The notes beneath the pieces were generated by a model, which had not been told where the DNA came from, made no database searches, and worked only from the letters and a program-made list of their open reading frames with translations. This document shows positions 32,401-58,312 of a stretch of 64,000 nucleotides of DNA, piece by piece. The translations under genes and the position numbers were made by a program. Position 1 is the stretch's first letter. Each line of letters opens with the position of its first letter. The DNA is taken from contig CM049309.1 of the NCBI GenBank assembly GCA_026874595.1, positions 11,832,576 to 11,896,575 on the forward strand, written 5' to 3'. The DNA comes from Sipunculus nudus. Lineage: Eukaryota; Annelida; Sipuncula; Golfingiida; Sipunculidae.

Positions 32401-32971
32401 TTATTTTGTTTCATCGGGGATATCAGCCCATCACATAACCTATTTGCCAGATTATTTGTCATAGCTTCAGATAAACTTTCTCGGACTGTCTTTTTCCTCT
32501 CTTCTGGGACAGCTACTCTTACCTCCCCTGTAGGACCTGACACTTTCTGTCTCTTTAACACATCAGCATGACCCTTAGCTGGTGTACTTGTTTTATTGTT
32601 CTGAAATTCATTTGTCATTTCTGACTTGGCTGGAGAACTGACACACTGGCTTACTGATACAGCATTTGATACAGTCTCTTTCTTCTGAAGCAAAACATTA
32701 TTGTTTTGCATCTTTTGTTCACTGCCATTATGTTTTTGTTCCCTAGCATTATGATTTGATGATGTAACTTGTGGGTGCTGTTCCTGTGGTTCTGCCATCA
32801 CGTTATCACCAGCAGCCCGTGAATCATGATTTGTCAATTTCTTTATCAGTTCCTCTTGGTGTTTGGTGATGGCATATCGGTGGTCACGAATCATCTCCTT
32901 TTCTTTAATCTTACGATGAAGAAGAAGCTGAGTTTCACGATGTCGACTCATTGGGGTTGGAGTACCAGGAC
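29445..32971 (-). CDS. RFX7: RFX7-like gene, giant terminal exon
   Basis: Acceptor TTTAATAG; the reading frame runs 1175 codons to TAA at 29445. Low-complexity Gln, Ser, Pro and Val-rich sequence. Residues near the start ([17 protein letters not shown]) match the basic helix after the RFX7 helical domain. [16 protein letters not shown] and NLTQML near the end match the conserved C-terminal islands. A run of QQVLQG-type six-residue repeats is encoded at about 31990-32105. It has no introns, like the long last exon of vertebrate RFX7. Confidence 0.93.
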
Positions 32972-35900
32972 CTATTAAACAGAAAAAAAAATATGACAGC
33001 ATATGTAAAAATATCAAATGAAGAAGAGTATTTTTTCGATGTATATTCATTTGCTTCACAGATTTTTCAATTCAAATTTAACAATTAACAGTTACATTTT
33101 TGTTTCTGACAGGCAATCCAAGTATACATTATTAAAAAAATTCTAACAAAAACTTTCTCCTTTCTCTTTTTCTTATATATTGACAGACAATGTTTAGTAT
33201 CATATATATTGAAATGTACCTCAGTTTTAATGGTAACAAGCCATTTGGTTAAAGTTATGACCATTGTAAGTGTATCCGATTTGTTTGGACACAGGTTTTG
33301 CATATGGCTGCATTTCAGTTTTTAACATGCCTGGATCTAGCTTTCCTATCATAAAAAAAAGATCATTACCAGAAAAAAATTTCAAATGTTTTGAGTTTAA
33401 GGGAAAGTAGACAAATATTATTAATTGAGTAGCTTTTTGTACCAGACATAATACCAGTAATTAAGCATAAATTAGTAACATATACAAGGACAGATTAAAA
33501 ACACAACTTACAACTTATTAAAACAACTTTTCAGTGAAGTTTTTGATACATATTATACTGCCACTCAGGTGCTTCTCATTAACAGTTAGTGGTGTGAGTG
33601 GGAGAAGAATTCAAATGATCATCTCACCTTCACAGAGGTCAGGTCCACATTTGGTGACGGATCGTACAGTAAATGCTGCCACAGATCTGGGGTCCACATA
33701 GGTGTTTTTTATCAGATGTTCAGCCAGTTTCTGAACACTGCTGAAGTTTTTATTCATCACTTTACTGGCCCATTCACACACTACAACCCCTGAAGCTTTG
33801 TTCACTTGTAAGGCAGCGTCATCAAACCTGTCACTCTGCAACACAATATGTAAGTAGAAAAATCAAACCTTGCAAAATATAAAAATATGAATGTTATAAT
33901 TGATTATTTTTTTTTAAATTTTGTGTTTGAGGTAATTTCTACCATTTATTAATGATAGCTTAACTACATTTATTTTCAATTCTGGTGTCAGACTATGTGA
34001 CATGGCCCTATCACACACTTCCTTTCATTTTATATCCTGTTGTTAACCAGGATAGTTGACTTCTGCACCTGCAGGCCCTGGCTGTGTAATCATCCCCATA
34101 GCTTCTTCATACTATTAAGGAACCCCTGAAAGGTGCACTCATTTGTGAGTGAAACACACCGTGGAGCATGGTCTTCCCATTAAGCCTTTGAGCTTCCCAT
34201 GCAATCCCCTATTTGGGGGCCTAACGTGAAAAATCTCACCGCCTCAGCTGAGATTCTACTCATGATCTCCTAGCTTTAAGTACTGTGCTCTACCCCTGAG
34301 CCACAGAAGCCGGTATGTAACAACTGATTTTTGACACAAATTTACAGAACAGCAAAAATGCTTTGAAAAATTTGCAAAACAAGATGAAACAAGGGCACCA
34401 CAAAGCAGAGCATCCCCTCGCATGGGAGCATAACTATACTGGGTGTATTACACAGTATGAAAATGATGAAGGCAGCTCTGTGACCTTGACCTCTGACTCA
34501 CTGACCTCAAAATACATAGGTTTCTTTATTCGTGGTTGATTGAGACATATAAGCAAGATGAAAGGTTTCAGCAAACAGTTTGGCTTAAGTCGGTCAACAA
34601 GCTTTTTCAAGAATTGGGTCCTGTGGCTTTGACCTATGACCCTGTGACCTCTAAATCAATAGAGTTCTTCATCTGTGGGTGAGTTAGCCATATGTACAAG
34701 ATGAAAGGTTTTGGTCAAATGGTTTGGCTTAAAATGGGTCCACAATCCAATTCTAGACGGATGGACAGACAGACACACAAAGTACTTTATCCTCTCTGGC
34801 AACTTTGTTTTGAGGGGATTATTATACAACCACTATATTTTAAGTGATAGGACAGCATGAAACAGCAAATACCTCTGCCAACACTTGTGGCCAGTCTTCC
34901 AACAATTCCCAATTAATTAAGAAATATTTCAGTTATTTTACTGACAATCAAGGCACATTTAATCTTTGCTCTTTCTGAGGGATGCATGTCTTTGTGGTGA
35001 TTTTATAAAGGAAGAAACGTGCAAACACCATGTCACCACCATGAAACCACAGTAAAGGAAGTTTAAAAGAATGAATTGATGAGGTTTCTTGTTTTTAGTG
35101 AAATTATAACAAACCATCTGGTCTTTAATGAGAAACAAGGGCATATACTGAAGATCATACAAGTTATCAGACACTGGCAATGAATCTTGCCACCCTAGCT
35201 CCAAACTGAATTTGTATATAGCATTTATCAATATTTCAAAAAGTATTCAATGAATATTAATGGGAATTTGTGGAAGTAAGGACCAAGGGTTCATGTGGAT
35301 CAATCAGTTTTTGGCGCAGATCTGGATGAGGATCAATAAATGTGTCGGTGGAGGTATGTGCTCTTTGAGTGCTTTCTATTAGATACCTCATCAGATGCCT
35401 GCTTCGGAGGCTGGATATCAGGAAGTCGTGGAACGGTCATCAGTTTTCTCATGATGCCACTGAAGTAATATCTGAACCCATTCAGGAATATGATAACAAT
35501 AAACATATATACAGTAATGATTATACAAACTAAAGGTAACTAAAGCCTTGTTCACACTTCATCCATATTCACTTAATTCAGTATCAAGCACTGGTTTACT
35601 GCATCCAAATCCATGTTCTGATCACACTACACTTGTATTCATTTTCCACATCGGTGATTTCACTTTGGGAGATAGTTTCATTCCCAAATTCATTTTTGAG
35701 GTATAAAATAATCCAAACATATTCAACAGCGACATCTGGTGGTAAGTCAGACCAACCAGAGTTGTTCAGAGGGCGTTTTGCAACTTCTGAACATATGAAA
35801 CCAAACACCTCGGGTTTTCTGTTTGCAATAAATGGCATATGTACTGTATTTACTAACAACTTGTAGATAAAAAAAGCTCATACATTCATCACAGAGGTGT

Positions 35901-44600: not shown

Positions 44601-47600
44601 GTCAACTTGATTTTTAGATCGATCCATGCAATATTTCTTGAGATATTTAAGAATTTGTGTGATTTTCCAAAATGGACCTTTTTAAGGTCAAGGTCGCTCT
44701 CCTAAACAAGGCCTACAGGCCTAATGCGAACCTGTGCATATGGATATACACCAGGTATAACGCTTCAATGCTGAACCAATACTTTTCATATATATGAACA
44801 ATGCAAGTTCTAAACATTTTGAACAAGAAACAATACACAAACATCACTGCTGAAATTCTGGCATGGGTGCACACAACACAAAAATTATTGTAGGTGACAC
44901 CACCATTCTTGTATACGACAAAGCTATTTGACATGTACAAATATGCCCAATTTCAGGCTGATATATCAAATTCTTCCGTAGAATTAAGCAGGCATATACA
45001 CTTTGCAAAAGTCATTGTAGATGGCGACACCTGTCTTGGGAACGAGAAAGCCATTAAAGACATATAGACAGGTCAGAATATCAGGCCAATACATCAAACT
45101 TACCTTGAGTCTGATGCATGGGGCTGACCAGGCTTAGGTGAGAAAGGCTGTTGCCCCGAGTGTACTGTGACAAATTACTGGCTCAGGCTACTGCACTGAG
45201 TGAACTCTTGACCTGCACCTGGCTAGACTGAGTGAACTTTTGACCTGTACCTGGCTGCACTGAGTGAACTCTTGACCTGTTGCATAATCTGACACAGTTG
45301 GCAGTCTGCCAAAGCTATAAATAAATCCAGTCTGACCTTTTGCCTATTGCCAAATCTGAAATAGTAGCCACACAATTGCATAAGCTCACAGATTGGCTCC
45401 ATATGCAGCCCTGAGGGGCATGACACCCATGAGGTGATCACATGATACTCATGAGGTGATCACATGCTACCCATGAGATGATCACATGCTGCCCATGAGG
45501 TGATCACATGCCTTGTGCTTGGCTGCACTGATTGAACTGTTGACCTATATTTGGCTGCACTGAATGAACTCTTGATCTGTTGCCAAATCTGAAACAGTTG
45601 GCAGTTTCTCAACCTATTCAAGAAACAAACACAATATTGGCCTGTTATGTAACTCTGCTTAAATTTATCCAACACAAACCATTTGAACAAACTTGAGAGG
45701 GCTTGCCTCTGGGATCATTTCTGTAAAATATTGAACAATTTGGCTGGACTGGTTACAAGAAGAAGACTTTTTTTCAGCTTTTTCCTTGTAAAATCTAAGT
45801 AAATGCAGATAGCAAAAATAAGCTGAATCCATCAACATTTGATATGTGACAGATAATTGCATAACATTTGGGGATGGTAGCTCCCGCTATTCCTGAGAAA
45901 TTATGAGTAAGTGTACAGATGATATGTAATATCATAAATCTACATTTTTTAAAAGCTTTCAAAAAATATTCTTGTCAATATTTTCCATAGATAACCTGAA
46001 ATCTTAATGTCTAGAGGCATGATGTAATGGATGCTGATAAACTGGTGCTATTATAGTAGATGTAGGTAGTCTCACCTCGTAGTACGACCTCAAACACGCC
46101 AACAGGCAGCTCCAATCGGACATGGACTCCTCGATGGCTCTCTACAGCTCGGCCCTTATACACACGACACTCACCGGAGGTCTTCTGGCGTAAAACTGGG
46201 GGGTCCTATGACGGGTCCCGGATCCTTGGGCAGGTCATTTAATCCGTTCCTACTACATTCCTCCCCTTTTTGTGAGAGGTGAGCCCATCTTCCAAAAGAA
46301 TGGACTGAGGCGACTATATCCCGAGACTATGGATATTGAATGTTTGCAGCTAACAACTGGACAAAGTAGTCAAACTGGACAGTACACTGGACACTGAACA
46401 CTAAAATTACCCTGTCGACCTGAGGTCTAAATTACTCTGGCTTGGAACAACACAACATATCTAGTGATGCCCTAAGGGACAATCAGCTGTACAAAGTCGG
46501 AAGGGTCACCGAGGCTTGCCCCGCAGACATTGGCAACGCATCCGTTGTACACTGTACAGCTTCTAAACCTATTTAGTTTAAACTGTCTCAACAAAACCTT
46601 GCCCTACAGGTAATAACAAGTGAACTATGAAAAGAACTATAAACGAAGAGAGCTATTCCCACTGGAGTACAACTTATAAGGGGGACTAGCTGTACGAATA
46701 CTCTCAGAGGACTCACCGAGGGGTTGCATCGCAGACATCGGCTGTACCCTCCGGAAAGGCTCCGTACAGCTCCTGTGCATTAGCATTGCAGTGCATTGCA
46801 AAGGTTTCTACTGGTAACCCTCTCAACTGGGCCAAATACTTAACCAGCTCTCCGAGATGCCATGGGGAAGCAGCGAGGTATGGACTGTCGGACTCGACTA
46901 GGATTCGGTTAAGAGGCACTACCGATACTGCTTCCTCTGTTTCCTGACTTCTACGTACTGTAGATGTGAACCCGAAGTAACAATTCGGAAGACGACTAAC
47001 CCACGTCTCTAACTCGTCTTTATTCCCTGAGAAACAATGACGGTGGATCTTATGTCCTTGCAACCCAGAATCCAACAGCATGGCTAAGGCTTGTCTAGCC
47101 GCCTCCCCCGAGCCGTAATCCCTACAGTGGAGAATGAGGACCTTGGACTGGAAATCCTCCCGGCGCAGAAGACTAAGAACCTCCCTGAAGAACCCAGTCT
47201 GCAAAAGCTGTTCCCTAGTGCTAGTATGAGTGAATTCTAGCCCCACTTCACCCAAAGCTACACAGGAAGGTAAGGCCAAAAGGTGCTCAAGCGACAATAA
47301 CTGCTGTTGGCGAGCTGCCCTGGACTTGATGAGGCGAGGGTGGACACCAAAAGAACACTTTATACGTCGGTCCCCAGACAAACTACGGTGACTATCCCAG
47401 TAATGAGGGAACACAAAGTTCGAAACCATGCCTAAGACCGCTCGCTCTGGCTCACCCACTGAGGCTTCGAACTGTGCTAGAGACCTGGCATCTGCCCTGC
47501 TAAGCATGACGTCAAGGTGGCAGTGTGAATCTATGATGCCTACTACTGCGGCATGAGTGTTAGAGTCGGGGACGAACCCTGAGATGGCAGACCTAGTATC

Positions 47601-50600
47601 AACTGGAAGTGTGGCTAAAAGCCTCATTAGAACGTCCCAGTGAATCACACAGATTTCCGAATTAGGGGGCCTAGCACTAAACACACTGGGTATCTCCCAT
47701 CCGTACTTAGAAGCTACCTTGGCTAAGAGTACCTGCTCTTCCTCGTTAAACCCTGGCGGATGAGGATTAGGGTTATGCAACTGGTGTTGAAGGATATATG
47801 CCTTGAGATCAGAGGGTTCACCCAAGCCTAATTTTTGGGTAATGAACTGGATGAACTGGTATACCCATAATCCCCACAAGTCCTCAAACAGATTACTATC
47901 ATCGAACTTTTTGCATCCAACCCCTGTATGCCTAAGCCTAAGGAAACATTTGGACGACTCCTGGACTCTGCACGTCCAGCATGCTGTGAACGGGTGGTGC
48001 CACCAGGGCAAATGGTCAGTTGCCACATGCCGGCCAAGGGAACTGCTATCTTCCCCACATATACGACAAGTGTGTTGGCGCCTGGACTTCCTGATGCTGC
48101 CAGTAGCACCGGATTTAGCCCCAGGAACGGGCTCATAATTGGGAACAAATCTGTCCTCCCCAAGACTCTCTGGGTCTTCCATTGCTCTACAAAATGTAAC
48201 TCTAAATAACAATAAGTGGCAACGCCTTATCTATAACTCCATGCACCTTACGCTATGGCATAAGATAATCCTTAAGATAAGCCGGCTTCCGGCACTTACG
48301 CCTCGACTCCCTGTTGCTATGGGCTGGTGAGTCTAGTGGCGAGATCCCCGAATCCTGGCACTCAGAAAGAGGCTCTGGACTTCCCTTTGGAATATCTTCA
48401 GTTATACTGCTACTAGGATCCGAAACGGCGGGATCACTACCAAGGGCGCCCTCTGAGGCTGCAACAGCTACTGCAGGTTCCCCTGACGAGGTCGGTGCTG
48501 ACCCTCCTTCTGCCGGATCTTGACCACCATCAGAGGATTCTGGAATGGATTCAGACTGATCTAGTAAGGTGGCTGTTTCCCGATGGAATAACTGAGCGCG
48601 AGTTCTTCGTAGCCAATGGGGAAGAAAGCCGTCTGCACAACGCTTCAGGTTGTTGTGGTGATGGTAGGACTCTTTTTTCTTTGTCCTGACCAAATACAAT
48701 GGAGGCTTTGCCTTAACCACTAGATAAGGCCCTTTCCAGATGGGTTGAAGCTTCGGGCTTTGCCCCTTCTTTGTTGACCTGTCACGGAGGTAAACCACAT
48801 CACCCATCCCAAAACGATCCTCTCTTACGAGAATGTCGTACAGTTGTTTTTGATGCTCGAGGTTACCTTTCAACTTCTCCCTCACACGATGGTGAATGGC
48901 CTCCATACGCTTCGTGAGGTTATGGACCCAGCTCTCAGGAGTATGGCTTTGCTCATCTGTGTTCATACCAAGTATCAGATCGGTGGGTTGGTAAACCTCG
49001 CGTCCCAGCATAATTTGATTTGCAGAGAAACCTGTCATTCGGTTGACCATCGAGTGCAGAGCCATAACGACGAGTGGTAGATCTTCGTCCCACTCCCGAG
49101 TCCGGCCTTGGATCATACACCGCACCATCTGCAACACATTCCTGTTTTGCCGTTCAACCTGGCCATTCGAAGAGGGGTGGTAGGGCGTAGTCCTAGTCTT
49201 GGCTATACCCATCCTCTCACAGAACGCTTTGAACAGGTTCGACTCAAAATTGCGGCCTTGATCGGTGTGAACGATAAGCGGACAACCGAAGGTGGTGACG
49301 AAATGCATGATGAATTGCTTGGCCACAGTCTCCGCTGTCTGGTCAGGAATAGCCGCACACTCAAGCCATTTGGAGAATTGGTCACACATCATTAAGATGT
49401 AAGAGTTCCCCTGTGTGCTTGTTGTAAATGGCCCAAGGACGTCCAGATGCACACGTTCCATTGGATATCCAGAATGATAGTTGACTAATCCTGCTTTTGC
49501 AGTTCTAACAGGCCGTTTATGTTGGTTGCAGACTTGACACTGTGCCACATACAGTGCACAGTCTCTGACCATATTGTGCCAGAAAAAGGACCTACGGAGG
49601 CGTGCCAAGGTCTTATCTCTTCCTAGGTGCCCAGCCGTGGGGCAGCCATGGCAAAGTTTAAGGATTTCCTGTTTTAAACCCTCAGGGACCACCAATAAGG
49701 GGTGCGCCCCATCATCGCCTTCCCACATATAATGGAGTACACCACCCCTCAACTGCAATTGGGACCTACATGCCCACAAAGATTTAACTGCAGGACTAGT
49801 GAGGAGCAGTTCTGCCTGCTTCGGCTCTCCATTGTCCAACCACAATACCAAGGGCTTTAGGTCCGGGTCAGCTTCCTGCATCTCTATCAGCTGATTAGAA
49901 GAGTAAGCTTCCAGCCAATTAGGCGTCTGGTCCGGGGTGGATTCTGTGTCGGACACTTCACTGCCTGAATCCGTGGCTGTATGGCATCCAGATGCATCTG
50001 AGGAACCGTCAATTTCTCTCGCATCTCCAGGTTCCTCTTCACCAGCTGTATCTTCGGCCGTAACCCCAAGTTCACACGTCCTGACTGCCAAAGGAACCAC
50101 ATCATCTACATCTTCTGTGAATCGGATCCACTTTTCACTTGCTCTCTGGCAGTTCTGACACCCCTTACAAGGGAGGTCTTGGGTACGAGCTCCCGCACTG
50201 TAGCATTCACATGGCGGTGCTGGAATTCTGGAAAGGCCGTCCGCGTTGCAATGCTTATTGCCGGCCCGGTGCACGATCTTAAAATCATAGTTAGCAAGTT
50301 CCTCCAGCCAACGGGCTAGCTGACCCTCTACATGCCGAAAACGCATAAGCCAGGCCAGACAATTGTGGTCAGACCTTACCACAAATGGTCTCCCCAAGAG
50401 ATAGTGTCTGTAATGTCGACAAAACCGTATTACCGCCAGCAGTTCCTTGCGGGTGGTACAGTAGCGTCTCTGCTCCTTGGTCAGAGTAAAGCTCGCATAT
50501 GAGATGGTACGCTCCTGGCCGTTCTGCAACTGCGAGAGTTCAGCCCCTATTGCGTAGTCGGAGGCGTCGCAATCTAAAATGAACGTTCCTTCCTTTGAAG

Positions 50601-53600
50601 GCAGCGCTAGGCACGGGGCTGAAGTCAGCCGCTCCTTGAGTGCTTTGAATGCATCATGGTGCTGTTCAGACCATACGAAAATGGATTTGGGTTTCACCAG
50701 CTCATACAAACATGCAGTAATTCCCGCATAGCCTTGGATGTGTGCGCGATGATAGTTGCAGAATCCCAGGAAGGATTCGAGTTCTTTCCTTGTGACAGGG
50801 ACTGGCCAACTTCTGATTATGTCCGTTTTCCTGTCTGTGATCTTGACACCTTCGTAGCTAACGGTCCGTCCTAAGAATTCTACTTCAGATCTCAGGAACT
50901 CACACTTTCTTGGCTTGAGTTTCAGGTTGTGTGTCCGCAGACGTCCGAATACTTTCTCCAAACTGGCCAAGTGTTGGTCAAATGAAGTACCGAGGACGAT
51001 TATGTCATCGATGTACACGATGACTTCGGACCACGTGAGCCCCCTCAGCACGTGATTCATGGCACGCTGAAAGGTCGCTGGCGCATTACAAAGGCCGAAA
51101 GCGAGACGGTTGTGTTCAAACAACCCGTACTTTGTTATGAATGCTGTTTTCCTTTTTGCCTCTTCTTCCAACTCTATCTGGTAGTAGCCGGAGGCTAAGT
51201 CAAGAGTGGAGAAATAGACAGTGCCAGCCAGGGTATCCAAGCAATCTTCGATTAGGGGGAGAGGGTAGGTGTCCTTGACTGTCCTTTCGTTCAGGGCTCT
51301 AAAATCTATGCACCATCTCACCCCTCCGTCCTTCTTCCTTACCAACACTGGTGCTGAGGCCCACTCCGAACTAGAATGGCGAATAACCCCTGCTGCTAGG
51401 AGTTTCTCTAGGTGGCTCCTCTCTTCCTGTTCGAAACTGATTGGAACTCTCCTCATGCGTTGGTGGACTGGCGCGTGGCCTTTTGTATCCAGGTTGTGGC
51501 GAACCTCAGACAAGCAACCTAGATCCAGGTCGTGCTTAGCAAAGACGTCATGGTACGTTAGCAAGAGCTTCTCTAATTGTGTGGCCTGATCCTTTGATGC
51601 TGTCTCCCTGACCTGACTGACAATTTCTTTCAGATGGTCTGGTACCACTCTGCCATCTGTATTCTCCTTTAACTGGTCCCCTGCAATTCCAGACACGCGT
51701 CTGACAGTGGGCACTGGCATTGGTGGAACCGGCACAGCGCCCCCTGTTGGAGCACTGTTATAGTCCGCAGACTCGATACTTAGGGATGTAAGGATCCCTT
51801 CTACTCCTGTCGCCACGCCCACAGGTTGATTTGGGCGAAGCGTGATACACCTGTTGGAACTATTGCAAACTTCTATGCGCCCACTACTCCTAGTGAGCAT
51901 CTTGGGGGACCATAGTTCCGCCTGGCTAAACTTGGGTTCAACTAAGTAGTCGCAATTCTCAACTCTGCAACTAAGGACTCTTATAGGGATGGTGCTCACC
52001 GCATTGGGTTGCAGCACCCTCCGCGCTGCAGCGACTACTGAACATCCACAGATATCGTCATCCGGACTTGTCCGGATTGAAGCCTGTACTACCTCTCCCG
52101 GTAAGCTTACGGTTTTGTTTTCTAAATTAACCGTGCACTTTTGTGCCAGTAGAAAGTCTAGACCAAGAAGCACTGAATCTGATATCTTGGCTATGTACAC
52201 TGGCCAATGGTACGCTTTCTTTCCGAACTGGATAGTTGTGTCAGGGGCGCGCTCTGCTGTAAGCGCCGAATCATCCCCGCCAATCCCTTTCAGGGTGGCT
52301 GTGCCTGTGCATACAGGCTTCTCGGGTAGACTATCATAAAAGCTGAGGCTGATTACAGTGATTTGAGACGCACTGTCGATCACAGCCTGGGTGTCAACCC
52401 CGTTTATCTTAACTGGGGCTACTAGCGTTAGTCCTTGAGTTTGGCACACTTTAACTTCTGCCTCACAGAAACGTTCCTGAGTACCTGAACTGACAGAGGA
52501 GTCCTCCCGCTGAAGGGGAGGCTGACCTTGCTCCGCCCCACCTAGCTGGGTCGATGAGTGCTGACGATTGGCCTCGTCAGCCTCTGTTTCTTGTAAATGG
52601 CCTTCTGATAACTGGGTTGCGTCTAGGCCGTTTAACGCAACCCTTGGCCTTTTAAACCCTGTCCTGGTTCCTTATAGGCAGGATTGCCCTCACTATTTGG
52701 ACACTGTTTCTGAAAGTGTCCCCGCTGATTGCATTTGTAGCAGACGCTATTAGCAGGCTTTAGCTGGGGCCTACTTGGGCTTACGGATCTGGGCCTGGAC
52801 ACCATTAAGGCTTTCTTGATCAACCCTTCCAGACTGTCAATGCGTTTGTTCATTTGCGCCCAAGCCTGGTCGCTGGTTTCGGGTTGTGTGCCATTCCGCG
52901 GGTTGACCCTTTCAGATATTGTCGACTGGGCCTGCTTTGTGTCAACTTGACCTTCCATATCTGACGTTGCACTCTCGGCGAACGTTACCATTTTACGGGC
53001 TATGTGTATCTTCCCATAAATGGCTCGGTGGTTGTTGATGGCATCCTTCACGTATTGAAGAGCTTTGTGGAGGTATTTTGGGTTCCTTCCCATGGCACTA
53101 ACTGCTGCTTTCTTGTCGCCGCATCCCCTCAGGAAGTATTCAATGGCAAGCTGTTGAATTGTATCTTCTGTGGCGCCCGGGAAACCGTTTATAACCTGGA
53201 CGTGAACCCTTTCGCTAAACTCCTCCAGGGTCTCCTGGTCCTCCTGTCTTGCAAACTGAAGCTCCCTTCGCACAGTGATAGGTGCATCTCTCATGCCGAA
53301 ACGTTGCTCTAACTTCTTAGTTAAGCGTTTGTAGTCACCTTCCAATTCAAGCTCTCTGACATAATCAAGGGCCCTCCCACCAAGGGAGTCGACAAGTTTT
53401 TCTGCTTTCTTGTGTCTAGACCTTCCTCGCCTGTCTGCCAACCTCTGGAACTGGAAGAAGAAACCACTCCAATTCCTATCGCCTGTGAAGGTGCCTAACT
53501 TCATGATGTCTGGGCTCCTTCTTCTCCTTCTGGTGCCATGGCGGTGAGGTGAACAAGAGTAGTCTGAATCTTCGGAGTAAGAACTGGCTCTGATATCCCT

Positions 53601-56600
53601 TCTCCTATGCCTCGAACCATCACTAGAGCTGATGGACCTAACCCGACGCCGGTGATGCTTCTTACGGGACCGTGTGCCGCCACGTTCTTCGGAGGTTGAG
53701 TCGCTTGACTCAGAGGAACTGGACCTATGCCGGCGACGCCGTTCGTGTCTGTCTACACTCTTCTTAGGCCTTGAAGGCCGTTTCTTGTTGCTAACTCGGC
53801 TGGATCTAGTGGGCTGAGCCCAGAGGACGCCCTGGTCATACGCCTCCCGCTGTGTGTGATTATAGGGACCCACATTACCTGAGGCCGGTTGAGTACCCGG
53901 GCGTGAATTCACTGGTAAGGGGGCAGAAGTTCGACGCACGCTTAAAGCAGGACCTGTAGCTGGGTCAAAACCCTCATTTGTTCCCTGATAGTATACTTCC
54001 CCCCTAATATCGCCCTGGGTGGACCGAGGACCTGAATTCCCAATCATCGTTAACATGTCAAGGTTACTTATACCTTGCTGGGAATATCCAGCCGTTGACG
54101 CTGGACTACTGCCTTCATTACTGGGGGCTCCAGCATGACGACCGAGTTCAGGCTGGGTTTGGTCTACACTGGGACCATTTCGCATTCCCACACCTCTAGA
54201 CTGGGGTAAACAGTCACCTCTTACACTCCCCTCCCTCAACATATTTGGAGGCGGGACATATACAGCTTCGGTAGGAAGTGCATGAAGGATTCGATCTATG
54301 GAGGAATCGTTTGGGCCGCGATTCGGGGGCCCATCCGTCTTACCTGAAAGACGAATCTTGCCTTCCCGGGAAAGACGCTCCCAAAAGGTTAACGCTAGAC
54401 CAGTAGCATGAGCCAAATCAGGTAGGCCAAAATCAGGGGTTGACTCACGCAACCGAACAATGTGGAGGATAGTGGCTGGGGACAGCATATCCGTGAAATA
54501 GGTGACCAATTGGGACACCGAAGCAGAACTTACATCAATAGAATTTTGAAATTGGGCCATGATGCCAGTTGTAACAAGGGACAGGGAAGGTTGCCTGTGT
54601 GACAGGGAGCCCAATGCACGCAAGGAATATTCAATGATTAGCAAAACAAACAACGCAAGCTGATTAGGGATGCGCAAATTTAGCAAAAAGCAATGCCAGG
54701 CTCATAACCAACAACAAAGGTAATAGGGGCTCAACAACATGAACAAGCAAGTAAGCCAGCAAAGTGCATGCACAGGGTCCAGATCTATACAGTTTAAAGA
54801 GGAATATGACAAATAATGCAAAAAGTATCGGGACCTACTACACTAAAAGTACCTGTCCAGGCTATAATAGACTATAAAAGAACTTGGTGGAAGCACAATA
54901 CAACAACAGCAATATGGGGTTACCTCATGCTTCCTGCTTACCCACCCATTACTACTGATGGCTTAAAAAAAATTTTGTCAGCAAACAACCTTGACCTTAC
55001 CTGCACATTAAAAATACAAGATTGGGCCTCAGTACAGGCAGACTGTGAACTACAAAAGGGGCTAATACTACAGTAATAGCATACAAGTATAAACTCGTAC
55101 AAACTCCGATCCTAACAAGGTATATAAAGGAAAATTGCCTGTAACCACAGAAATTGCAGCTAATCAAGGGGGCAGAGAAGAATATGAAATATTCTAGGGC
55201 AATACTCAAGGAAATACGTGACAAAAAATCGTTCAGAGTGAAGAATTTCGGGGATCTTGACCAGAAACACGGGGTCACGTGATCACAGCTCTGATCAAAA
55301 CGATATGGAGAAGACCGAAATTCGACTATTGCTAGCACTAAGACTATTGACAGCTCTATCCAGTACAATAACAGGCAAGAACAACTAATTGTCCAGTTAA
55401 GTAAACACAAGACAACGCTGTACTAAGCTTGTCTCGACTGCTGAAGTCAGCAAAGGGACCAAAGTTTTTGACTAGCGCGCCAAGCAAAATGGCGGCTCCT
55501 TGCCGAGCTAAGATCTAGATACAACGACTACCGACTATCTAAGAGGTAAAACCGGGGCTAAACCCGCTCCAAATCATCCGTCGTCGCCATTATAGTAGAT
55601 GTAGGTAGTCTCACCTCGTAGTACGACCTCAAACACGCCAACAGGCAGCTCCAATCGGACATGGACTCCTCGATGGCTCTCTACAGCTCGGCCCTTATAC
55701 ACACGACACTCACCGGAGGTCTTCTGGCGTAAAACTGGGGGGTCCTATGACGGGTCCCGGATCCTTGGGCAGGTCATTTAATCCGTTCCTACTACACTAT
55801 GCTAGATGTATCTGCTTCACACAGCTAACATATTTGGTAAAATGACTCAATTCAATCTTTATAATTCAGCCAAAATGCATTTTTTGGAACCATAAAAGAC
55901 AATTATTATAAGAATGATTCAGGGAATTATTCTTGCAAAATATTAAACGAACTGGCCTCAGTATCATCATCAGTCAAAAAACGTTTTGTAGGTTTATAAC
56001 TCATATGGGAAAATACAGCAAAATGGCAAAGTTCAGCTTCCCATAACTCAGCCAAAAATCATTGAATCAAAACCATTTGAACAAACTTGAATTATCAATA
56101 TCTAAGGATAATTAATGTGTGAGATTTAAGAATTTGGCCCAGTGGTTTTTGAGAAGAAGATTTTTGTAGCCACTTAGCTAACATGGGCTGTTATGGCATA
56201 TGACTAAATTCAGCTTCCCATAACTCAGCCAAAAGTCACTGAACTGAGACCATTTGAACAAACTTGAATTATCAACATCCAAGGATAATTAATGTGTGAG
56301 ATTTATGAATTTGGCCCAATGGTTTTTGAGAAGAAGATTTTTGTAGCCACTTAGCTAAAATGGGCTGTTATGGCATATGACTTATTTAGGCTTCCAATAA
56401 CTTAGCCAAAGTCACTGAACTGAGACCATTTGAACAAACTTCAGAAAGCACTACCCTAGGATCATTTCTGTGCGATATTAAACAATTTGGCCATTTCGTT
56501 TCAGAGAAAAAGTTATTTGTAGCTGTCAGTATGATACGGGCACTGATGACCCCCATACAAAAAACCGATGCAGATGGCGCCACCAATACCTCAATTTCAG

Positions 56601-58312
56601 ATATGACTCATGTGACCAACATTGGCATAAAATTTGGTGATGATAGCTCAAGCCATTTCTGAGATTTTAATTTTAGTATGCTTTTTTGGACAGATGACTA
56701 AGTTCAATTTCCTGTAACTTGGCCAAAAATCACCGAACTTAAACCATTCGAACAAACTTGAGAGAGACTGTTCCAGGAATCATTTCTTTAAAATATTGGA
56801 CAATTTGGCTCAACAGATTCGGAGAAGAAGATTTTTTAAGCTTTTTGAGCTTTTTCCCTATAAAATCTAAGAAAATGCAGATAGCCAAAAAATAAGCAAA
56901 ATCCGACAGAGTTTTTTCAGATGACTAATTTTATGCATAAACTTTCGTGATGCCAATTCTTGCCGTTTTCAAGATAGTGTGGGTTAACGTACACACGACG
57001 GACGACGGACGACGCCACACCATTGCATAAGCTCACAGGTTCGCTAAAAAGGTCATGACCCCCATTTTGAATAGGCTTTGTCCCTGCACCTATATCTATG
57101 GACATGTCAAGTTTGGTAAAGATCCTTGAAATATTTTTTTAGTTATCTCGCCTGAAAGAAATCTCTGCTGCGGCACCACAATCGTGCCTAAACCATAGTA
57201 TCCTGACTTTGTCTGGGGATACAATTACTGAGACTGGGCAAGATATTTTCCATAACTCCCGTGGTAATATCCCTGTCAAGGAAATCTGTAAATGTATTAA
57301 GTCCCTTTATAACTCGTTGCAACATTTCCATATTTTTGTCTCTGTGTCACAGCTGACAACTTTTTGCAATTCCGAGATATTGGTGGAAACATTTCACAAG
57401 TTGAATTTCATGAAAATATACTGAGTAGTTCAAAAGTTATTACATTCACATAGCTGACTGGACCTTGAAGATCCAGGTCAAGGTCACCAGTTTTTGAACC
57501 CCTCAAAGAACTTGGATAAACCAATTAGTGTTTCAAATTTGAAGAAAAAAATTGTGATACTTCAAAAGTTATGGCGTTCACTATTTCTGCTTATTTGACC
57601 TTGATGATGAAGGTCAAGATCACTGGTTTCTGAACTTGTCTGAGATATTGGTAGAAAAATTTGAATTTCAAATTTCATGAAAAAATGTCAAGTTGTTTCA
57701 AAAGTTATCATGTTCAGAAGAAATGACACTATAAGTCTCCCCCCATGGGAGGGGAGTCATAATGATCAATAGATGATGCACAGGACTATGATCAATAGAT
57801 GATGCACAGATCAATGATGATAGATGATGTACAGGACAATGCTGAATAAATGATGCATAGGACAATGATCAATAGATGATGCACAGGTTAAATGATCAAT
57901 AGATGATGCACAGATCAATGATAAATAGATGATGCACAGGACAATGCTGAATAAATGATGCATAGGACAATGATCAAAAGATAATGCACGGGTTAAATGA
58001 TCAATAGATGATGCAAAGGAGAATGATTAATAGATGATGCACATGACAATGATCAATGGATAATGCACAGGACAATGATTAATTGGGTGAATGACTTAAC
58101 AATGCCCAAACAATGATGGACTGCACAAAGCTAAATAGTTACAGACTGAAGAATTTTCAACTGATGATGGACAACAGTTGCTGAAGGCAAGCAAAATAAG
58201 CATGACAAACTAAGATAACTCACCCTTTACTGGTGTCCTGTACAGCTTGACCGGTGGGCAGCTTTAGATACAGCAGTAGCTTCTCTACATCTGACAAGCA
58301 GCTGACTTCTTT
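29445..58312 (-). CDS. RFX7: RFX7-like transcription factor gene (six exons visible, N-terminus missing)
   Basis: Six minus-strand exons join in phase to 1383 codons and a stop: 58312-58224, 41806-41681, 36232-36116, 35471-35387, 33835-33628 and 32971-29445. Seen, in order: an N-terminal helix ([16 protein letters not shown]), the RFX winged-helix DNA-binding domain ([12 protein letters not shown] to YYFSGIMRK), a PRLPDI motif, the RFX5/7-specific helical segment ([14 protein letters not shown]), and a 1175-residue Gln/Ser/Pro-rich tail. The tail carries human-RFX7-like islands [19 protein letters not shown] and RRNLTQML. Established: RFX factors bind X-box DNA in the nucleus; RFX7 recruits ANKRA2 through PxLPx[I/L]. 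The visible length is close to full-length RFX7, so only a short N-terminal part is expected beyond 58312. The first intron shown hosts an intact Gypsy element. Confidence 0.93.
31990..32105. repeat. Coding minisatellite, 18-bp unit, in the RFX7-like gene
   Basis: About six head-to-tail units of a cctgttgaccctgaagca type on the plus strand encode repeating GQQVLQ / GQQVIQ on the minus strand. The frame is preserved because the unit is a multiple of three. Confidence 0.85.
33628..33835 (-). CDS. RFX7: RFX7-like gene exon: RFX5/7 helical domain
   Basis: TTGCAG acceptor and AAG|GTGAGA donor. Encodes [21 protein letters not shown] and SVAAFTV, collinear with RLVCEWAQKVL and SMAALTV of vertebrate RFX7. 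Ends in phase 1 and joins GPGTPTPMS of the last exon. Confidence 0.92.
34055..34315 (-). mobile_element. tRNA-derived SINE, copy 2
   Basis: Collinear with 13650-13925. The minus-strand head (about 34235-34312) contains tRNA-like A-box and B-box remnants around gagatcatgagtagaatctc and ccggcttctgtggctcag. Lies in an RFX7-like intron, in the gene's orientation. Confidence 0.75.
34440..34800 (+). repeat. Two-unit tandem repeat, ~150-bp unit
   Basis: The words tgtggctttgacc / ctgtgaccttgacc, gttgattgagacatat / gtgagttagccatatg, aagatgaaaggttt and gtttggctta recur about 150 bases apart. The second unit ends in an acggatggacagacagac tail like the other composite repeats. Confidence 0.7.
35387..35471 (-). 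CDS. RFX7: RFX7-like gene exon: end of DBD and PxLPxI motif
   Basis: TTCAG acceptor and GAG|GTATCT donor. Encodes [26 protein letters not shown] fits the PxLPx[I/L] ankyrin-repeat-binding motif and sits at the same place as PTLPNL in vertebrate RFX7. Confidence 0.92.
36116..36232 (-). CDS. RFX7: RFX7-like gene exon: centre of RFX DNA-binding domain
   Basis: TTTCAG acceptor and ACA|GTATCC donor. Encodes [20 protein letters not shown] and the wing approach [10 protein letters not shown]. The next exon completes QYYFSG. The RRLSLKGQP wing differs from the usual RRLGTRGxS. Confidence 0.92.
36340..36615 (+). repeat. Minisatellite, ~31-bp unit
   Basis: Eight to nine units of catctttcttctgtcaatat plus atcaatacactg lie head to tail in an RFX7-like intron. 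Confidence 0.88.
37113..38060 (+). repeat. Composite repeat of the ~338-bp family, diverged copy
   Basis: The head acaagtgacctaggggtcat is followed by two to three diverged units (ggtggtgccacttgcctgca at 37419, ggtggcaccactagtctgca at 37756; spacing 337). The tail is acagacgctcagatagctcagatgac. Same layout as at 22477 and 61433. Confidence 0.8.
38280..39015 (+). repeat. Tandem repeat, ~145-bp unit with GGTGGCGCCACC
   Basis: About five units share gatgtctgcagcgtaaac, (g)gtaggtggcgccacctgt, aagaaagctgtccaggatgt, tcaaac(cactg)ccgagatatgag and gacagacgctgtgcaaaaat. The perfect palindrome is at 38549-38560 and 38698-38709. Confidence 0.85.
39020..39315 (+). repeat. Dispersed repeat, second copy of the 1-330 block
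   Basis: Aligns with 1-295 from gatcggtcaaacggttccc through gttaggcaccagttcacatg, ctcagaggagttctcc and cccggtcaaaaaca to the terminal inverted repeat tatccgcaaaactttgttttgg. It directly follows the ~145-bp array, so the array and this block may be one element whose left part is cut off at position 1. Confidence 0.8.
39316..41551. other. RFX7-like intron, no gene seen
   Basis: Very AT-rich between 40500 and 41100. It carries a three-unit 30-bp direct repeat (atatagtgataaaaaattat) at about 41320-41400. No exon of the host gene recognised. Confidence 0.4.
41552..41650. repeat. (TA)n microsatellite, ~99 bases
   Basis: TA alternation with one TTTA interruption, 30 bases from the donor of the RFX7-like exon at 41681. 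Confidence 0.93.
41681..41806 (-). CDS. RFX7: RFX7-like gene exon: start of RFX DNA-binding domain
   Basis: TTTACAG acceptor and CAG|GTCAGT donor. Encodes the first helices of the RFX fold ([26 protein letters not shown]). Phases fit the exons on either side. A (TA)n tract begins 30 bases from its donor. Confidence 0.92.
41836..42015. mobile_element. MITE-like element with ACAGTGAAACC ends, copy 2
   Basis: Starts tacagtgaagcctgtg and ends gataggttccact. The interior has tggtcttattagacaggt and gggtggtcttaatag, shared with 7879-8034. It starts 30 bases upstream (in the gene's sense) of the acceptor of the exon ending at 41806. Confidence 0.6.
42016..43700. other. RFX7-like intron, no gene seen
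   Basis: No exon, RNA gene or transposon ends were recognised. The segment acatcttgtggcaagtcaga at about 42608 resembles acatctggtggtaagtcaga at about 35730, so it holds a dispersed repeat. Confidence 0.4.
43700..45110 (+). repeat. Diverged tandem units related to the GGTGGCGCCACC repeats
   Basis: Recurring words about 150-300 bases apart: aatttcaggccaatacatc, gagatatgagcaatttcacc, gcgaatgtacagatggac, gcagatggcatcaccagtct and aaggtggtgccacctgtctt. This appears to be an old, shuffled relative of the array at 38280. Confidence 0.65.
45195..45515 (+). repeat. Two short minisatellites (31-bp and 24-bp units)
   Basis: Units of ctggctgcactgagtgaact plus cttgacctgta lie at about 45195-45290. Four units of catgaggtgatcacatgcta type, each with a TGATCA palindrome, lie at about 45427-45512. 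Immediately left of the retrotransposon. Confidence 0.8.
46048..46051. repeat. Target-site duplication CTAT, left
   Basis: CTAT flanks the left LTR and is repeated right after the other LTR (55797-55800). A 4-bp duplication suits a Gypsy-type integrase. Confidence 0.75.
46052..46257 (-). repeat. 3' LTR (206 bp)
   Basis: Matches 55591-55796 at every position I compared. In the element's sense it starts TGTAGTAG and ends CTACTATA, giving a 7-of-8 terminal inverted repeat. A TATAAG box lies at 46155-46160. Confidence 0.96.
46258..46271 (-). other. Polypurine tract
   Basis: The minus strand reads AAAAAGGGGAGGAA directly before the TGTAGTAG start of the 3' LTR. This is the expected primer site for plus-strand DNA synthesis. 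Confidence 0.9.
46272..46712 (-). other. 3' untranslated part of the retrotransposon
   Basis: About 440 bases between the TatD stop codon and the PPT. No long ORF. Confidence 0.6.
46713..48182 (-). CDS. Retrotransposon ORF3: zinc finger plus TatD-family nuclease
   Basis: 489 residues from the ATG at 48182 (the open frame reaches 48212 without ATG). Residues 39-57 hold a C-x2-C-x9-H-x4-H pattern ([15 protein letters not shown]), followed by further Cys/His pairs (CWTC). A middle region of about 130 residues is unassigned. From about residue 215 a full TatD fold is readable: IIDSHCHLD (H220, H222), [16 protein letters not shown] (E312), LHCRD (H352), HRHCFSG (H382) and VESDSPYL (D432). These are the expected metal ligands, so the enzyme should be active. 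Established: TatD proteins are metal-dependent DNases; the metazoan TATDN2 branch is closest in style. It lies 70 nt after the pol stop, in another frame (+1), at the position of env in retroviruses. Inference: it is expressed from a spliced RNA and acts on DNA or RNA-DNA intermediates. Confidence 0.93.
   Translation of the reverse strand: MEDPESLGEDRFVPNYEPVPGAKSGATGSIRKSRRQHTCRICGEDSSSLGRHVATDHLPWWHHPFTACWTCRVQESSKCFLRLRHTGVGCKKFDDSNLFEDLWGLWVYQFIQFITQKLGLGEPSDLKAYILQHQLHNPNPHPPGFNEEEQVLLAKVASKYGWEIPSVFSARPPNSEICVIHWDVLMRLLATLPVDTRSAISGFVPDSNTHAAVVGIIDSHCHLDVMLSRADARSLAQFEASVGEPERAVLGMVSNFVFPHYWDSHRSLSGDRRIKCSFGVHPRLIKSRAARQQQLLSLEHLLALPSCVALGEVGLEFTHTSTREQLLQTGFFREVLSLLRREDFQSKVLILHCRDYGSGEAARQALAMLLDSGLQGHKIHRHCFSGNKDELETWVSRLPNCYFGFTSTVRRSQETEEAVSVVPLNRILVESDSPYLAASPWHLGELVKYLAQLRGLPVETFAMHCNANAQELYGAFPEGTADVCDATPR
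48183..48200 (-). other. Candidate 3' splice acceptor before the TatD ATG
   Basis: The minus strand reads TTACATTTTGTAG then AGCAATGG. AG ends at 48187, four bases before the ATG. Upstream T-rich sequence (TTATTGTTATTTAG) suits an acceptor. Confidence 0.5.
48253..52656 (-). CDS. pol: Retrotransposon Pol: protease, RT, RNase H, integrase
   Basis: The frame is open from the frameshift site (52656) through a GTG at 52449 to a stop at 48253. There is no ATG before the protease, as expected for a Gag-Pol fusion. Residues counted from 52449: protease with [12 protein letters not shown] (25-28 is DSAS, not DTG) and VLLGLDFL (93-100); RT at about 330-530 with [10 protein letters not shown] and YIDD (479-482); RNase H at about 620-740 (D626 or D628, E669, D694, D737); an acidic linker; integrase with H934-H941-C971-C974 and the D1003-D1063-E1099 triad (second gap 35 residues); a GPY-like module (WKGPYLVV, 1238-1245); then a Ser/Pro/acidic tail of about 110 residues. 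All catalytic residues of RT and integrase are present. Confidence 0.96.
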   Translation of the reverse strand, partial: FKRPRVALNGLDATQLSEGHLQETEADEANRQHSSTQLGGAEQGQPPLQREDSSVSSGTQERFCEAEVKVCQTQGLTLVAPVKINGVDTQAVIDSASQITVISLSFYDSLPEKPVCTGTATLKGIGGDDSALTAERAPDTTIQFGKKAYHWPVYIAKISDSVLLGLDFLLAQKCTVNLENKTVSLPGEVVQASIRTSPDDDICGCSVVAAARRVLQPNAVSTIPIRVLSCRVENCDYLVEPKFSQAELWSPKMLTRSSGRIEVCNSSNRCITLRPNQPVGVATGVEGILTSLSIESADYNSAPTGGAVPVPPMPVPTVRRVSGIAGDQLKENTDGRVVPDHLKEIVSQVRETASKDQATQLEKLLLTYHDVFAKHDLDLGCLSEVRHNLDTKGHAPVHQRMRRVPISFEQEERSHLEKLLAAGVIRHSSSEWASAPVLVRKKDGGVRWCIDFRALNERTVKDTYPLPLIEDCLDTLAGTVYFSTLDLASGYYQIELEEEAKRKTAFITKYGLFEHNRLAFGLCNAPATFQRAMNHVLRGLTWSEVIVYIDDIIVLGTSFDQHLASLEKVFGRLRTHNLKLKPRKCEFLRSEVEFLGRTVSYEGVKITDRKTDIIRSWPVPVTRKELESFLGFCNYHRAHIQGYAGITACLYELVKPKSIFVWSEQHHDAFKALKERLTSAPCLALPSKEGTFILDCDASDYAIGAELSQLQNGQERTISYASFTLTKEQRRYCTTRKELLAVIRFCRHYRHYLLGRPFVVRSDHNCLAWLMRFRHVEGQLARWLEELANYDFKIVHRAGNKHCNADGLSRIPAPPCECYSAGARTQDLPCKGCQNCQRASEKWIRFTEDVDDVVPLAVRTCELGVTAEDTAGEEEPGDAREIDGSSDASGCHTATDSGSEVSDTESTPDQTPNWLEAYSSNQLIEMQEADPDLKPLVLWLDNGEPKQAELLLTSPAVKSLWACRSQLQLRGGVLHYMWEGDDGAHPLLVVPEGLKQEILKLCHGCPTAGHLGRDKTLARLRRSFFWHNMVRDCALYVAQCQVCNQHKRPVRTAKAGLVNYHSGYPMERVHLDVLGPFTTSTQGNSYILMMCDQFSKWLECAAIPDQTAETVAKQFIMHFVTTFGCPLIVHTDQGRNFESNLFKAFCERMGIAKTRTTPYHPSSNGQVERQNRNVLQMVRCMIQGRTREWDEDLPLVVMALHSMVNRMTGFSANQIMLGREVYQPTDLILGMNTDEQSHTPESWVHNLTKRMEAIHHRVREKLKGNLEHQKQLYDILVREDRFGMGDVVYLRDRSTKKGQSPKLQPIWKGPYLVVKAKPPLYLVRTKKKESYHHHNNLKRCADGFLPHWLRRTRAQLFHRETATLLDQSESIPESSDGGQDPAEGGSAPTSSGEPAVAVAASEGALGSDPAVSDPSSSITEDIPKGSPEPLSECQDSGISPLDSPAHSNRESRRKCRKPAYLKDYLMP
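52614..52656 (-). promoter_or_regulatory. -1 ribosomal frameshift signal between gag and pol
   Basis: In the element's sense the heptamer TTTAAAA (52656-52650) sits in the gag frame as T TTA AAA, the X XXY YYZ rule. It is followed by a 6-nt spacer (GGCCAA) and a perfect 9-bp hairpin GGGTTGCGT / ACGCAACCC (52643-52635 with 52622-52614). The 12-nt loop contains the gag stop codon. Pol lies in the -1 frame, open across the site. A loop GGCC could pair with GGCC at 52599-52602 to form a pseudoknot (inference). Confidence 0.9.
52632..54560 (-). CDS. gag: Retrotransposon Gag with SR-rich domain and zinc knuckle
   Basis: 642 residues from the ATG at 54560 (the open frame extends to a TTG at 54686 without another ATG). 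Residues about 254-353 are rich in Arg, Ser and His with RS/SR dipeptides ([21 protein letters not shown]), like a splicing-factor RS domain. Residues about 354-518 look like a retrotransposon capsid ([43 protein letters not shown]). A CCHC knuckle, C-x2-C-x4-H-x4-C, lies at residues 607-620 ([14 protein letters not shown]). The stop is at 52632, within the frameshift hairpin loop. Function: particle assembly and RNA packaging. Confidence 0.93.
   Translation of the reverse strand: MAQFQNSIDVSSASVSQLVTYFTDMLSPATILHIVRLRESTPDFGLPDLAHATGLALTFWERLSREGKIRLSGKTDGPPNRGPNDSSIDRILHALPTEAVYVPPPNMLREGSVRGDCLPQSRGVGMRNGPSVDQTQPELGRHAGAPSNEGSSPASTAGYSQQGISNLDMLTMIGNSGPRSTQGDIRGEVYYQGTNEGFDPATGPALSVRRTSAPLPVNSRPGTQPASGNVGPYNHTQREAYDQGVLWAQPTRSSRVSNKKRPSRPKKSVDRHERRRRHRSSSSESSDSTSEERGGTRSRKKHHRRRVRSISSSDGSRHRRRDIRASSYSEDSDYSCSPHRHGTRRRRRSPDIMKLGTFTGDRNWSGFFFQFQRLADRRGRSRHKKAEKLVDSLGGRALDYVRELELEGDYKRLTKKLEQRFGMRDAPITVRRELQFARQEDQETLEEFSERVHVQVINGFPGATEDTIQQLAIEYFLRGCGDKKAAVSAMGRNPKYLHKALQYVKDAINNHRAIYGKIHIARKMVTFAESATSDMEGQVDTKQAQSTISERVNPRNGTQPETSDQAWAQMNKRIDSLEGLIKKALMVSRPRSVSPSRPQLKPANSVCYKCNQRGHFQKQCPNSEGNPAYKEPGQGLKGQGLR
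54561..55576 (-). other. Retrotransposon leader between PBS and gag
   Basis: About 1 kb without a long ATG-initiated ORF. It holds short upstream ORFs and an ATG-less 137-codon open frame (55410-54997) rich in hydrophobic residues. A strong donor-like CAG|GTAAGG sits at its end (cut after 55001). Packaging signals are expected here but not recognisable. Confidence 0.6.
54995..55004 (-). other. Candidate 5' splice donor in the retrotransposon leader
   Basis: The minus strand reads GCAG|GTAAGG, close to the metazoan consensus; the exon would end at 55001. A second donor-like GAG|GTGAGA lies in the 5' LTR (cut after 55615). Confidence 0.5.
55577..55589 (-). other. Primer-binding site, tRNA-Ser-like
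   Basis: One base after the 5' LTR the minus strand reads TGGCGACGACGGA. The first nine bases are complementary to CCA plus the 3' end of metazoan tRNA-Ser(GCT) (..TCGTCG-CCA). The match weakens after that. Confidence 0.75.
55591..55796 (-). repeat. 5' LTR (206 bp)
   Basis: Identical by eye to the 3' LTR. Contains TATAAG at 55694-55699 as a likely core promoter and the TG start / TA end. The transcript would start a short distance left of the TATA box. Confidence 0.96.
55797..55800. repeat. Target-site duplication CTAT, right
   Basis: Matches CTAT at 46048-46051. Confidence 0.75.
55840..56540 (+). repeat. Tandem repeat, ~177-bp unit
   Basis: Three units with cttcccataactcagcc at about 56037 and 56214 and a variant at 56391, each followed by caaaagtcactgaactgaga, ccatttgaacaaactt and ttttgagaagaagatttttg. 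Diverged relatives occur at 45660-45900, 56690-57060 and 59400-59990. Confidence 0.85.
56541..57060 (+). repeat. Diverged relatives of the 177-bp unit with a gacgacggac tail
   Basis: Shares taacttggccaaaaatcacc and attttggac(a)gatgac with 59690-60000 and ends with gtacacacgacggacgacgg. A GATGGCGCCACC word lies at 56573. Confidence 0.7.
57420..57745 (+). repeat. Tandem repeat with ccttga..aggtcaaggtcac words
   Basis: Three units of about 130 bases carry gaccttgaagatccaggtca or a variant, then accagtttttgaacccctc, then a ttcaaaagttatnncgttcac-type phrase. Similar sequence is near 25860-25960 on the opposite strand. Confidence 0.7.
57760..58085 (+). repeat. Minisatellite, ~27-bp unit
   Basis: About twelve units of atgatcaatagatgatgcac plus aggacaa, some with deletions. 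Spacing is irregular. Just downstream of the donor of the first visible RFX7-like exon. Confidence 0.9.
58224..58312 (-). CDS. RFX7: RFX7-like gene, first visible exon
   Basis: TTTACAG acceptor and GG|GTGAGT donor; 29 codons plus 2 bases. Encodes [20 protein letters not shown], which parallels the helix before the DNA-binding domain in vertebrate RFX7 (DLEKLYLYLQLPSG). It has an acceptor, so at least one upstream exon exists. Confidence 0.88.

Follow-up and report, generated by a model that had tools for sequence, protein, structure and literature searches.

A Ty3/Gypsy-type retrotransposon of Sipunculus nudus with a predicted TatD-family nuclease as its third gene

Enzyme-encoding extra genes in LTR retrotransposons

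Gag and pol are thought to be sufficient for LTR elements. The closest described systems with a further enzyme gene are Juno and Vesta, LTR retrotransposons of bdelloid rotifers in which ORF3 encodes a DEDDy exonuclease (Rodriguez, Kenefick and Arkhipova 2017, PMC5408684); in that paper, the within-genome departure from neutrality of the bdelloid extra ORFs is given as not significant. In orchids of the genus Phalaenopsis, Gypsy elements encode an m6A demethylase of the AlkB type, the activity of which was demonstrated in vitro (PMC9289625). On the side of cellular genes, links with R-loops and with the survival of germ cells have been reported for animal TATDN2, a TatD-family protein (PMC12709183). 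Here, we examine an element in which the third gene is of the TatD family.

Anatomy of the element

The window, i.e., the whole stretch of 64,000 nucleotides analysed (Sipunculus nudus, contig CM049309.1), contains a complete and intact Ty3/Gypsy-type LTR retrotransposon at 46052..55796 on the minus strand. An earlier note, made from the sequence alone, had placed an intact Gypsy-type element there, and its coordinates proved exact, with LTRs, a CTAT duplication, a primer-binding site (PBS), a polypurine tract (PPT) and a PR-RT-RH-IN pol. The two LTRs, described then as identical-looking, are 206 bp long each and identical at 206 of 206 positions (5′ LTR, TGTAGTAG...CTACTATA, 55591..55796, minus strand; 3′ LTR, 46052..46257, minus strand). 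Moreover, a 23-base pattern of the LTR ends, allowing up to three mismatches, occurs at two places in the window, both LTRs, against zero expected. The target-site duplication CTAT was read on the left (46048..46051) and on the right (55797..55800) of the element. One base inside the 5′ LTR lies the PBS (TGGCGACGACGG..., 55570..55589, minus strand), assigned from its position and leading TGG only and with an arbitrary inner end, and the PPT AAAAAGGGGAGGAA (46258..46271, minus strand) adjoins the 3′ LTR. Altogether, the LTRs, the short target-site duplication, the PBS and the PPT are those of a Ty3/Gypsy element. A tRNA scan and an Rfam scan of the window returned no matches. The element is young, since identical LTRs imply a short time since insertion, even though 206 bp without a difference yield a loose upper age limit only.

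All genes of the element are on the minus strand, and gag, pol and ORF3, which had been reported as open, are indeed free of inner stops. Gag (52635..54560, minus strand; 642 aa, counted from the first in-frame ATG) features a CCHC knuckle (zf-CCHC, E = 1.1e-5); it also has a PNMA match below threshold. The pol open frame (48256..52671, minus strand), which is −1 relative to gag, matches the Pfam families aspartyl protease, RVT_1, RT_RNaseH, Integrase_H2C2 and rve, in the order PR-RT-RNase H-IN expected of Ty3/Gypsy. Pol is most likely produced by −1 frameshifting, for which a probable site exists at 52614..52659 (minus strand), where G GGT TTA and T TTA AAA overlap in the gag register, with a 6-nt spacer and a 10-bp stem (−16.6 kcal/mol, z −2.14, equally good in 6 of 200 shuffles); the gag frame holds six in-register heptamers, four of which are away from this site. 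ORF3 would most likely be translated from a spliced subgenomic RNA, like env in retroviruses, using a candidate donor AGGTAAG in the leader (54996..55002, minus strand) and a candidate acceptor TTTTGTAG just 5′ of the ORF3 start codon (48187..48194, minus strand), both of which are consensus matches alone, among seven donor-like and five acceptor-like sequences, some overlapping. Finally, third-position GC is 0.52 in ORF3 and 0.50 and 0.52 in gag and pol, respectively, versus 0.39 in the sole long ORF outside the element.

The ORF3 protein and its relatives

ORF3 (46716..48182, minus strand; start ATG at 48182; 489 aa) lies after pol and before the 3′ LTR, without overlapping pol. Its residues 217–474 form a TatD nuclease domain, matching TatD_DNase (PF01026) over profile positions 1–253 of 253 (E about 1.7e-40; 139.5 bits for a cut-off of 27). 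This is the only Pfam family above its cut-off in ORF3, and no DEDDy exonuclease domain was found there. The motifs HxH, GE, HCRD, HCFSG and SDSPY listed in the earlier note all occur in ORF3 and line up with TatD enzymes of solved structure (e.g., YcfH), and the metal ligands of the TatD family (HxH, E, H, H, D) are complete, at positions that we take, from that family, to be H220, H222, E312, H352, H382 and D432. While the TatD part of the original description (zinc finger plus TatD) stands, the "zinc finger" is really a wider Cys/His domain of ~170 aa (residues ~36–205), which corresponds to no Pfam family, is common to the relatives of ORF3 and may bind zinc. In TATDN2 as well, the TatD domain is C-terminal in a longer protein, which probably also has an HRHCF motif, as seen in ORF3. 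With its catalytic residues intact and in an element with identical LTRs, ORF3 is the intact nuclease-type gene proposed earlier, and we predict that it is a functional auxiliary nuclease.

Eleven database proteins have the whole architecture of ORF3, with both the Cys/His and the TatD halves. Together with ORF3, they form a single clade (100/99) with respect to 36 ordinary TatDs, in a tree in which the bootstrap had not settled, long branches meet and none of TATDN1, 2 or 3 is included. The motif HxHC[FY] occurs in 12 of 12 proteins of this clade versus 0 of 94 other TatDs. Despite identities of 24–46%, catalytic residues are retained: H220, H222, E312, H352 and H382 in 12 of the 12 aligned proteins and D432 in 11, because P0011 is a truncated protein. 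Likewise, N-terminal C42, H52, H57, C68 and C71 are kept in all 12, and C39 in 11. The closest relative of ORF3 is P0001 (46%, 223/489), which was also the sole protein, of 112 candidates, recovered with residues 30–205.

For pol, the closest relative among the 120 listed of at least 861 pols found (7998 candidates) is P0023 (57%, 816/1430). A quick tree without clade names, covering the window pol and 62 of the 120 listed database pols, places P0023 as sister to the window pol (SH-aLRT 96). P0001 and P0023 are each listed on one contig, and both contigs have 557,787 bases; given this equal size, they are probably on one contig, even though equality of size is no proof of adjacency. The species of this contig could even be that of the window. 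P0001, P0023 and P0002 represent clusters of 4, 6 and 27 members, respectively, sizes that do not show whether members share one genome; those of 4 and 27 would fit multicopy genes, a one-genome origin not being implied. Of the 11 whole-architecture relatives, one is on a contig whose size is found again for one of the pols (120 listed, of at least 861), while the other 10, for which no pol link emerged, could be host genes or parts of other element types.

In viral contigs, a scan with the full ORF3 alignment yielded three loci where only the TatD part matched, and no contig matched the N-terminal part of ORF3, the pol alignment, P0007 or P0023. Among prokaryote genomes scanned for the conserved TatD motif, at least 511 stretches encode a relative, and the best 80 are all named bacteria. 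Sixteen phage records have a TatD match, all below 60% identity and none covering 80% of ORF3, and a search of PHROGs with ORF3 and gag gave no match.

Possible roles and comparison with known systems

We consider it fairly probable that a Ty3/Gypsy-type lineage stably carries a TatD-family nuclease as its third gene, which is predicted to act on the nucleic-acid intermediates of the element. With 11 whole-architecture relatives in one clade, ORF3 does not give the impression of having been captured just once, and the related proteins found elsewhere suggest that the TatD gene has long been associated with such elements. The equal contig size of 557,787 bases supports the existence of a second, diverged element with a like pol and a like ORF3, in which case P0023 and P0001 would belong together. 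Mechanistically, the Cys/His domain would most likely bind nucleic acid or gag, thereby bringing the nuclease to the particles or cDNA of the element, where the TatD domain would act on nucleic-acid intermediates by trimming or cutting them, to the presumed benefit of the element. As substrates, RNA in RNA–DNA hybrids and RNA 3′ ends come first, a doubtful choice made because of the activity reported for animal TATDN2 (PMC12709183); among the roles proposed earlier, the removal of RNA–DNA hybrids would fit that report best.

A broader proposal, which we advance only tentatively, is that of a widespread class of animal retroelements with a dedicated Cys/His plus TatD ORF3, predating the divergence of the sampled elements. 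All 12 proteins would then be retroelement genes of one origin, and many invertebrate TATDN2-like genes would be copies or domesticated versions of them. If true, tallies of TATDN2-like genes in invertebrate genomes may include transposon genes. And if the nuclease was kept over a long divergence, this would point to a step of the cycle that is not left to host enzymes; examples are the removal of hybrids, the trimming of ends, cDNA repair and the fight with the host.

The last of these could be the actual function, ORF3 being a weapon against the host or competing elements that breaks down silencing intermediates, or DNA or RNA sensed by the host, rather than the element's own replication intermediates. 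We regard this as unlikely, even though TatD enzymes do occur in conflict systems, as indicated by the match of ORF3 residues 215–472 to QatD, the TatD nuclease of the Qat anti-phage system, and the fixation of the demethylase in orchid Gypsy elements was related by its authors to host surveillance (PMC9289625). Indeed, the QatD match reaches 90.2 of 230 bits, far under the curated NCBIfam cut-off, and a higher score is obtained with TIGR00010, the general TatD model (109.9 bits); moreover, the QatD model (239–250 positions) is devoid of the N-terminal domain.

Equally unlikely, in our view, is that the main home of the gene is a multi-copy, TATDN2-like host family, from which the element acquired it a single time, and that the relatives in the databases are host genes. 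This would agree with the 10 of 11 relatives lacking a demonstrable link to the pols (120 listed of at least 861) and with the TATDN2-annotated genes mentioned for molluscs, both in the giant squid, where the Hox cluster includes one among its non-Hox genes (PMC6962438), and in oyster (PMC10778899), but not with the contig match between P0001 and P0023. That same match weighs against an even less probable reading, in which the element took up a host TatD gene recently or by accident, ORF3 being roleless and open only through the youth of the element. Host-gene capture by LTR elements is documented (PMC7264820) and identical LTRs leave little time since insertion, but a passenger gene should have decayed, whereas here both halves and the catalytic residues are kept even though the closest relatives differ in at least half of their residues. 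Finally, that ORF3 retains an envelope-like job, as its env position might evoke and as the bdelloid authors leave formally open for their own enzyme ORF3s (PMC5408684), is highly improbable, since its 489 aa contain neither a transmembrane-like stretch (highest 19-residue hydropathy 1.44) nor an N-glycosylation motif (NxS/T), and a full TatD domain accounts for more than half of it, which upholds the earlier view of a third-ORF type distinct from env.

Returning to the nuclease reading, the window element resembles Juno and Vesta in that the third ORF after pol is of nuclease type and not an envelope, and a Cys-His-Cys motif noted in the ORFs of Vesta2 and Vesta5 is comparable to the Cys/His domain of ORF3 (PMC5408684). 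They differ in the nuclease family, DEDDy (RNase D-like) versus TatD, in the dUTPase of the bdelloid pol and in an ORF3 that bdelloid LTR elements share with Penelope-like elements; the word TatD is absent from the main text of that paper. The Phalaenopsis elements are likewise of Gypsy type with an extra enzyme ORF, but the enzyme is a demethylase, the hosts are plants and the elements measure about 25 kb; the extra domains that the survey names, part of a total of 15, do not include TatD (PMC9289625). Animal TATDN2, likened here by its description only, is a TatD-family protein too, but encoded by a cellular gene, and its link to R-loops and germ-cell survival makes an element-borne relative a natural tool for probing such nucleases on reverse-transcription intermediates (PMC12709183). 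The literature searched yielded no description of a retroelement with TatD. Given the bdelloid DEDDy precedent (PMC5408684), the window ORF3 is not the first nuclease known as an ORF3; what is new is its TatD version.

Structure and coding frames of the element

The earlier note had proposed an intact Gypsy-type retrotransposon, and its coordinates (46052-55796) proved exact for a complete LTR retrotransposon on the minus strand. The two LTRs (46052-46257 and 55591-55796, minus strand; 206 bp each) start with TGTAGTAG, end with CTACTATA and are, as they had looked to the earlier note, identical (206/206 positions). The element is flanked on both sides by the target-site duplication CTAT; at its inner edges, a primer site starting with TGG follows the 5' LTR after one base, and a polypurine tract directly adjoins the 3' LTR. 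Within the window, blastn returned no second copy (only the element against itself and LTR against LTR), and a 23-base LTR-end pattern (up to 3 mismatches) located the two LTRs and no extra one. GC content in 2-kb bins is 45-52% across the element vs. 28-47% in the remaining bins.

The gag frame (52635-54560, minus strand) encodes 642 aa, counted from the first ATG, and features a CCHC knuckle. Its residues 367-452 give a sub-threshold PNMA match (18.9 bits vs. a cut-off of 25), which is in line with a Gypsy-type capsid. The domain order of pol (protease, RT, RNase H, integrase) is that of Gypsy. Pol lies in the -1 frame and overlaps gag by 37 bases (52635-52671). This stretch holds two heptamers in -1 slippage register, G GGT TTA and T TTA AAA, and 6 bases past them comes a stem of 10 bp (-16.6 kcal/mol, z -2.14; 6/200 shuffles equally good); the whole gag frame has six in-register heptamers, of which just these two fall within the overlap. 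ORF3 (46716-48182, minus strand) starts 70 bases past the pol stop codon, and the acceptor-like TTTTGTAG directly before its ATG, together with a donor-like AGGTAAG in the leader, suggests that its message may be spliced, both being candidate sites.

Around the element, a 177-bp tandem repeat (56032-56441; 2.3 copies, 92%) starts about 230 bp past the right end, with diverged copies reaching 56870, and further tandem arrays occupy 45191-45280, 45425-45511 and 57761-58000. A single open frame of 1204 aa outside the element (29445-33059, minus strand), Gln/Ser-rich by eye and devoid of Pfam matches at E up to 0.1, may represent one long host-gene exon.

The ORF3 protein and its relatives

In the 489-aa ORF3 protein, the TatD domain spans the entire Pfam profile (E=1.6e-40), and solved TatD nucleases align with it, the best being YcfH (E=3e-15 alone, 4.1e-36 with the family profile). 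An envelope is without support in the sequence, as the earlier note had held, since ORF3 shows neither a transmembrane-like stretch nor an NxS/T motif.

From about 5.8 billion proteins, we scored the 8000 candidates that had the most words in common with ORF3 and obtained 22 matches. Half of these (P0001-P0011, 24-46% identity) share both ORF3 halves, while the remaining 11 proteins, P0012-P0022, align with the TatD part alone, over 39-53% of the query; two of the latter carry an extra Pfam entry (PF04055 in P0014, PF04909 in P0019). When ORF3 and P0001-P0011 are aligned, the metal ligands, said to be all present in ORF3, are indeed kept in all twelve proteins, with D432 in 11/12 (P0011 ends early). 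In the Cys/His region, C42, H52, H57, C68 and C71 are found in 12/12 and C39 in 11/12, the second Cys/His part being largely missing from P0011. For the N-terminal 215 residues of ORF3, Pfam gives nothing at E up to 1, and P0001-P0011 include one protein each with a weak C2H2-finger match to zf-C2H2_4, zf-C2H2 and zf-C2H2_2 (the best at E 0.097).

In a tree with 36 other TatDs (P0012-P0022 and 25 drawn at random from 83 scan loci of viral contigs and prokaryote genomes), these twelve proteins fall together in a single clade (100/99), within which ORF3 groups with P0001-P0004 (100/99). Moreover, the motif HxHC[FY] occurs in 12/12 ORF3-type proteins vs. 0/94 other TatDs. The position of the clade among TatDs is unreliable, because the bootstrap is unsettled and long branches meet in a sample from which TATDN1, 2 and 3 are absent.

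Probable association with pol elsewhere

For pol, 7998 candidates were scored and 861 proteins found, of which the best 120 were compared. Among these, P0023 is the top relative (57% identity, pol residues 3-1396; cluster size 6) and lies on a single contig 557,787 bases long. P0001, which heads the ORF3 matches (46% identity over the whole length; cluster size 4), has a contig of equal length. Since the top matches of two independent searches have contigs of exactly equal size, which is otherwise very unlikely by chance, P0001 and P0023 would share one contig, on which we infer the pol and TatD genes to be adjacent. In a quick tree of our pol and 62 of the 120 best, our pol and P0023 are sisters (SH-aLRT 96), and P0053, a shorter pol of 1219 aa, branches next to the pair (support 100).

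None of the ten contigs of P0002-P0011 equals in size a contig of the best 120 of 861 pols, nor do the 22 ORF3 matches provide, by equal contig size, a TatD partner for P0053 (contig of 1,659,729 bases); these negatives are weak, because the comparison covered the best 120 of 861 pols. Some related Gypsy pols carry extra Pfam entries, which we take to be a macro domain (PF01661 in P0035, named O-acetyl-ADP-ribose deacetylase in one source), PHD (PF00628 in P0137 and P0142) and zf-CW (PF07496 in P0078 and P0090).

Possible function and known third frames

The conservation of active-site residues over such a large divergence argues, at the sequence level, for a working nuclease. An element-borne TatD enzyme would have substrates at hand, since RNA-DNA hybrids, primer remnants and gapped ends all arise in reverse transcription. 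According to PMC12709183, E. coli TatD is a 3'-5' exonuclease on ssDNA and RNA, AP endonuclease activity is known for TatD, TATDN1 and TATDN3, and TATDN2 combines RNA 3' exonuclease and endonuclease activities and resolves R-loops. Our first choice for ORF3, itself rather doubtful, would be the processing of hybrids or RNA ends; a use directed at the host ranks second.

Genes annotated as ZMYM1 or POGK are company expected of transposon-derived genes. PMC6962438 lists a TATDN2-annotated gene together with such genes, among the non-Hox genes of the giant squid Hox cluster, and it may be a retroelement TatD. In the open-licence PMC literature, screened by title and opening of the abstract, and in passages of PMC6962438, PMC5840709, PMC5408686 and PMC8062694, we found no report of a TatD inside a retroelement.

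ORF3 had also been proposed as a third-ORF type distinct from env, which is supported. Bdelloid LTR elements likewise have an enzyme as ORF3, but these are DEDDy exonucleases and GDSL esterases (PMC5408684), and orchid Gypsy elements likewise carry an extra enzyme, but an m6A demethylase, active in vitro (PMC9289625). Enzyme ORF3s, nucleases among them, are therefore a known kind, of which TatD is, as far as searched, a new type.
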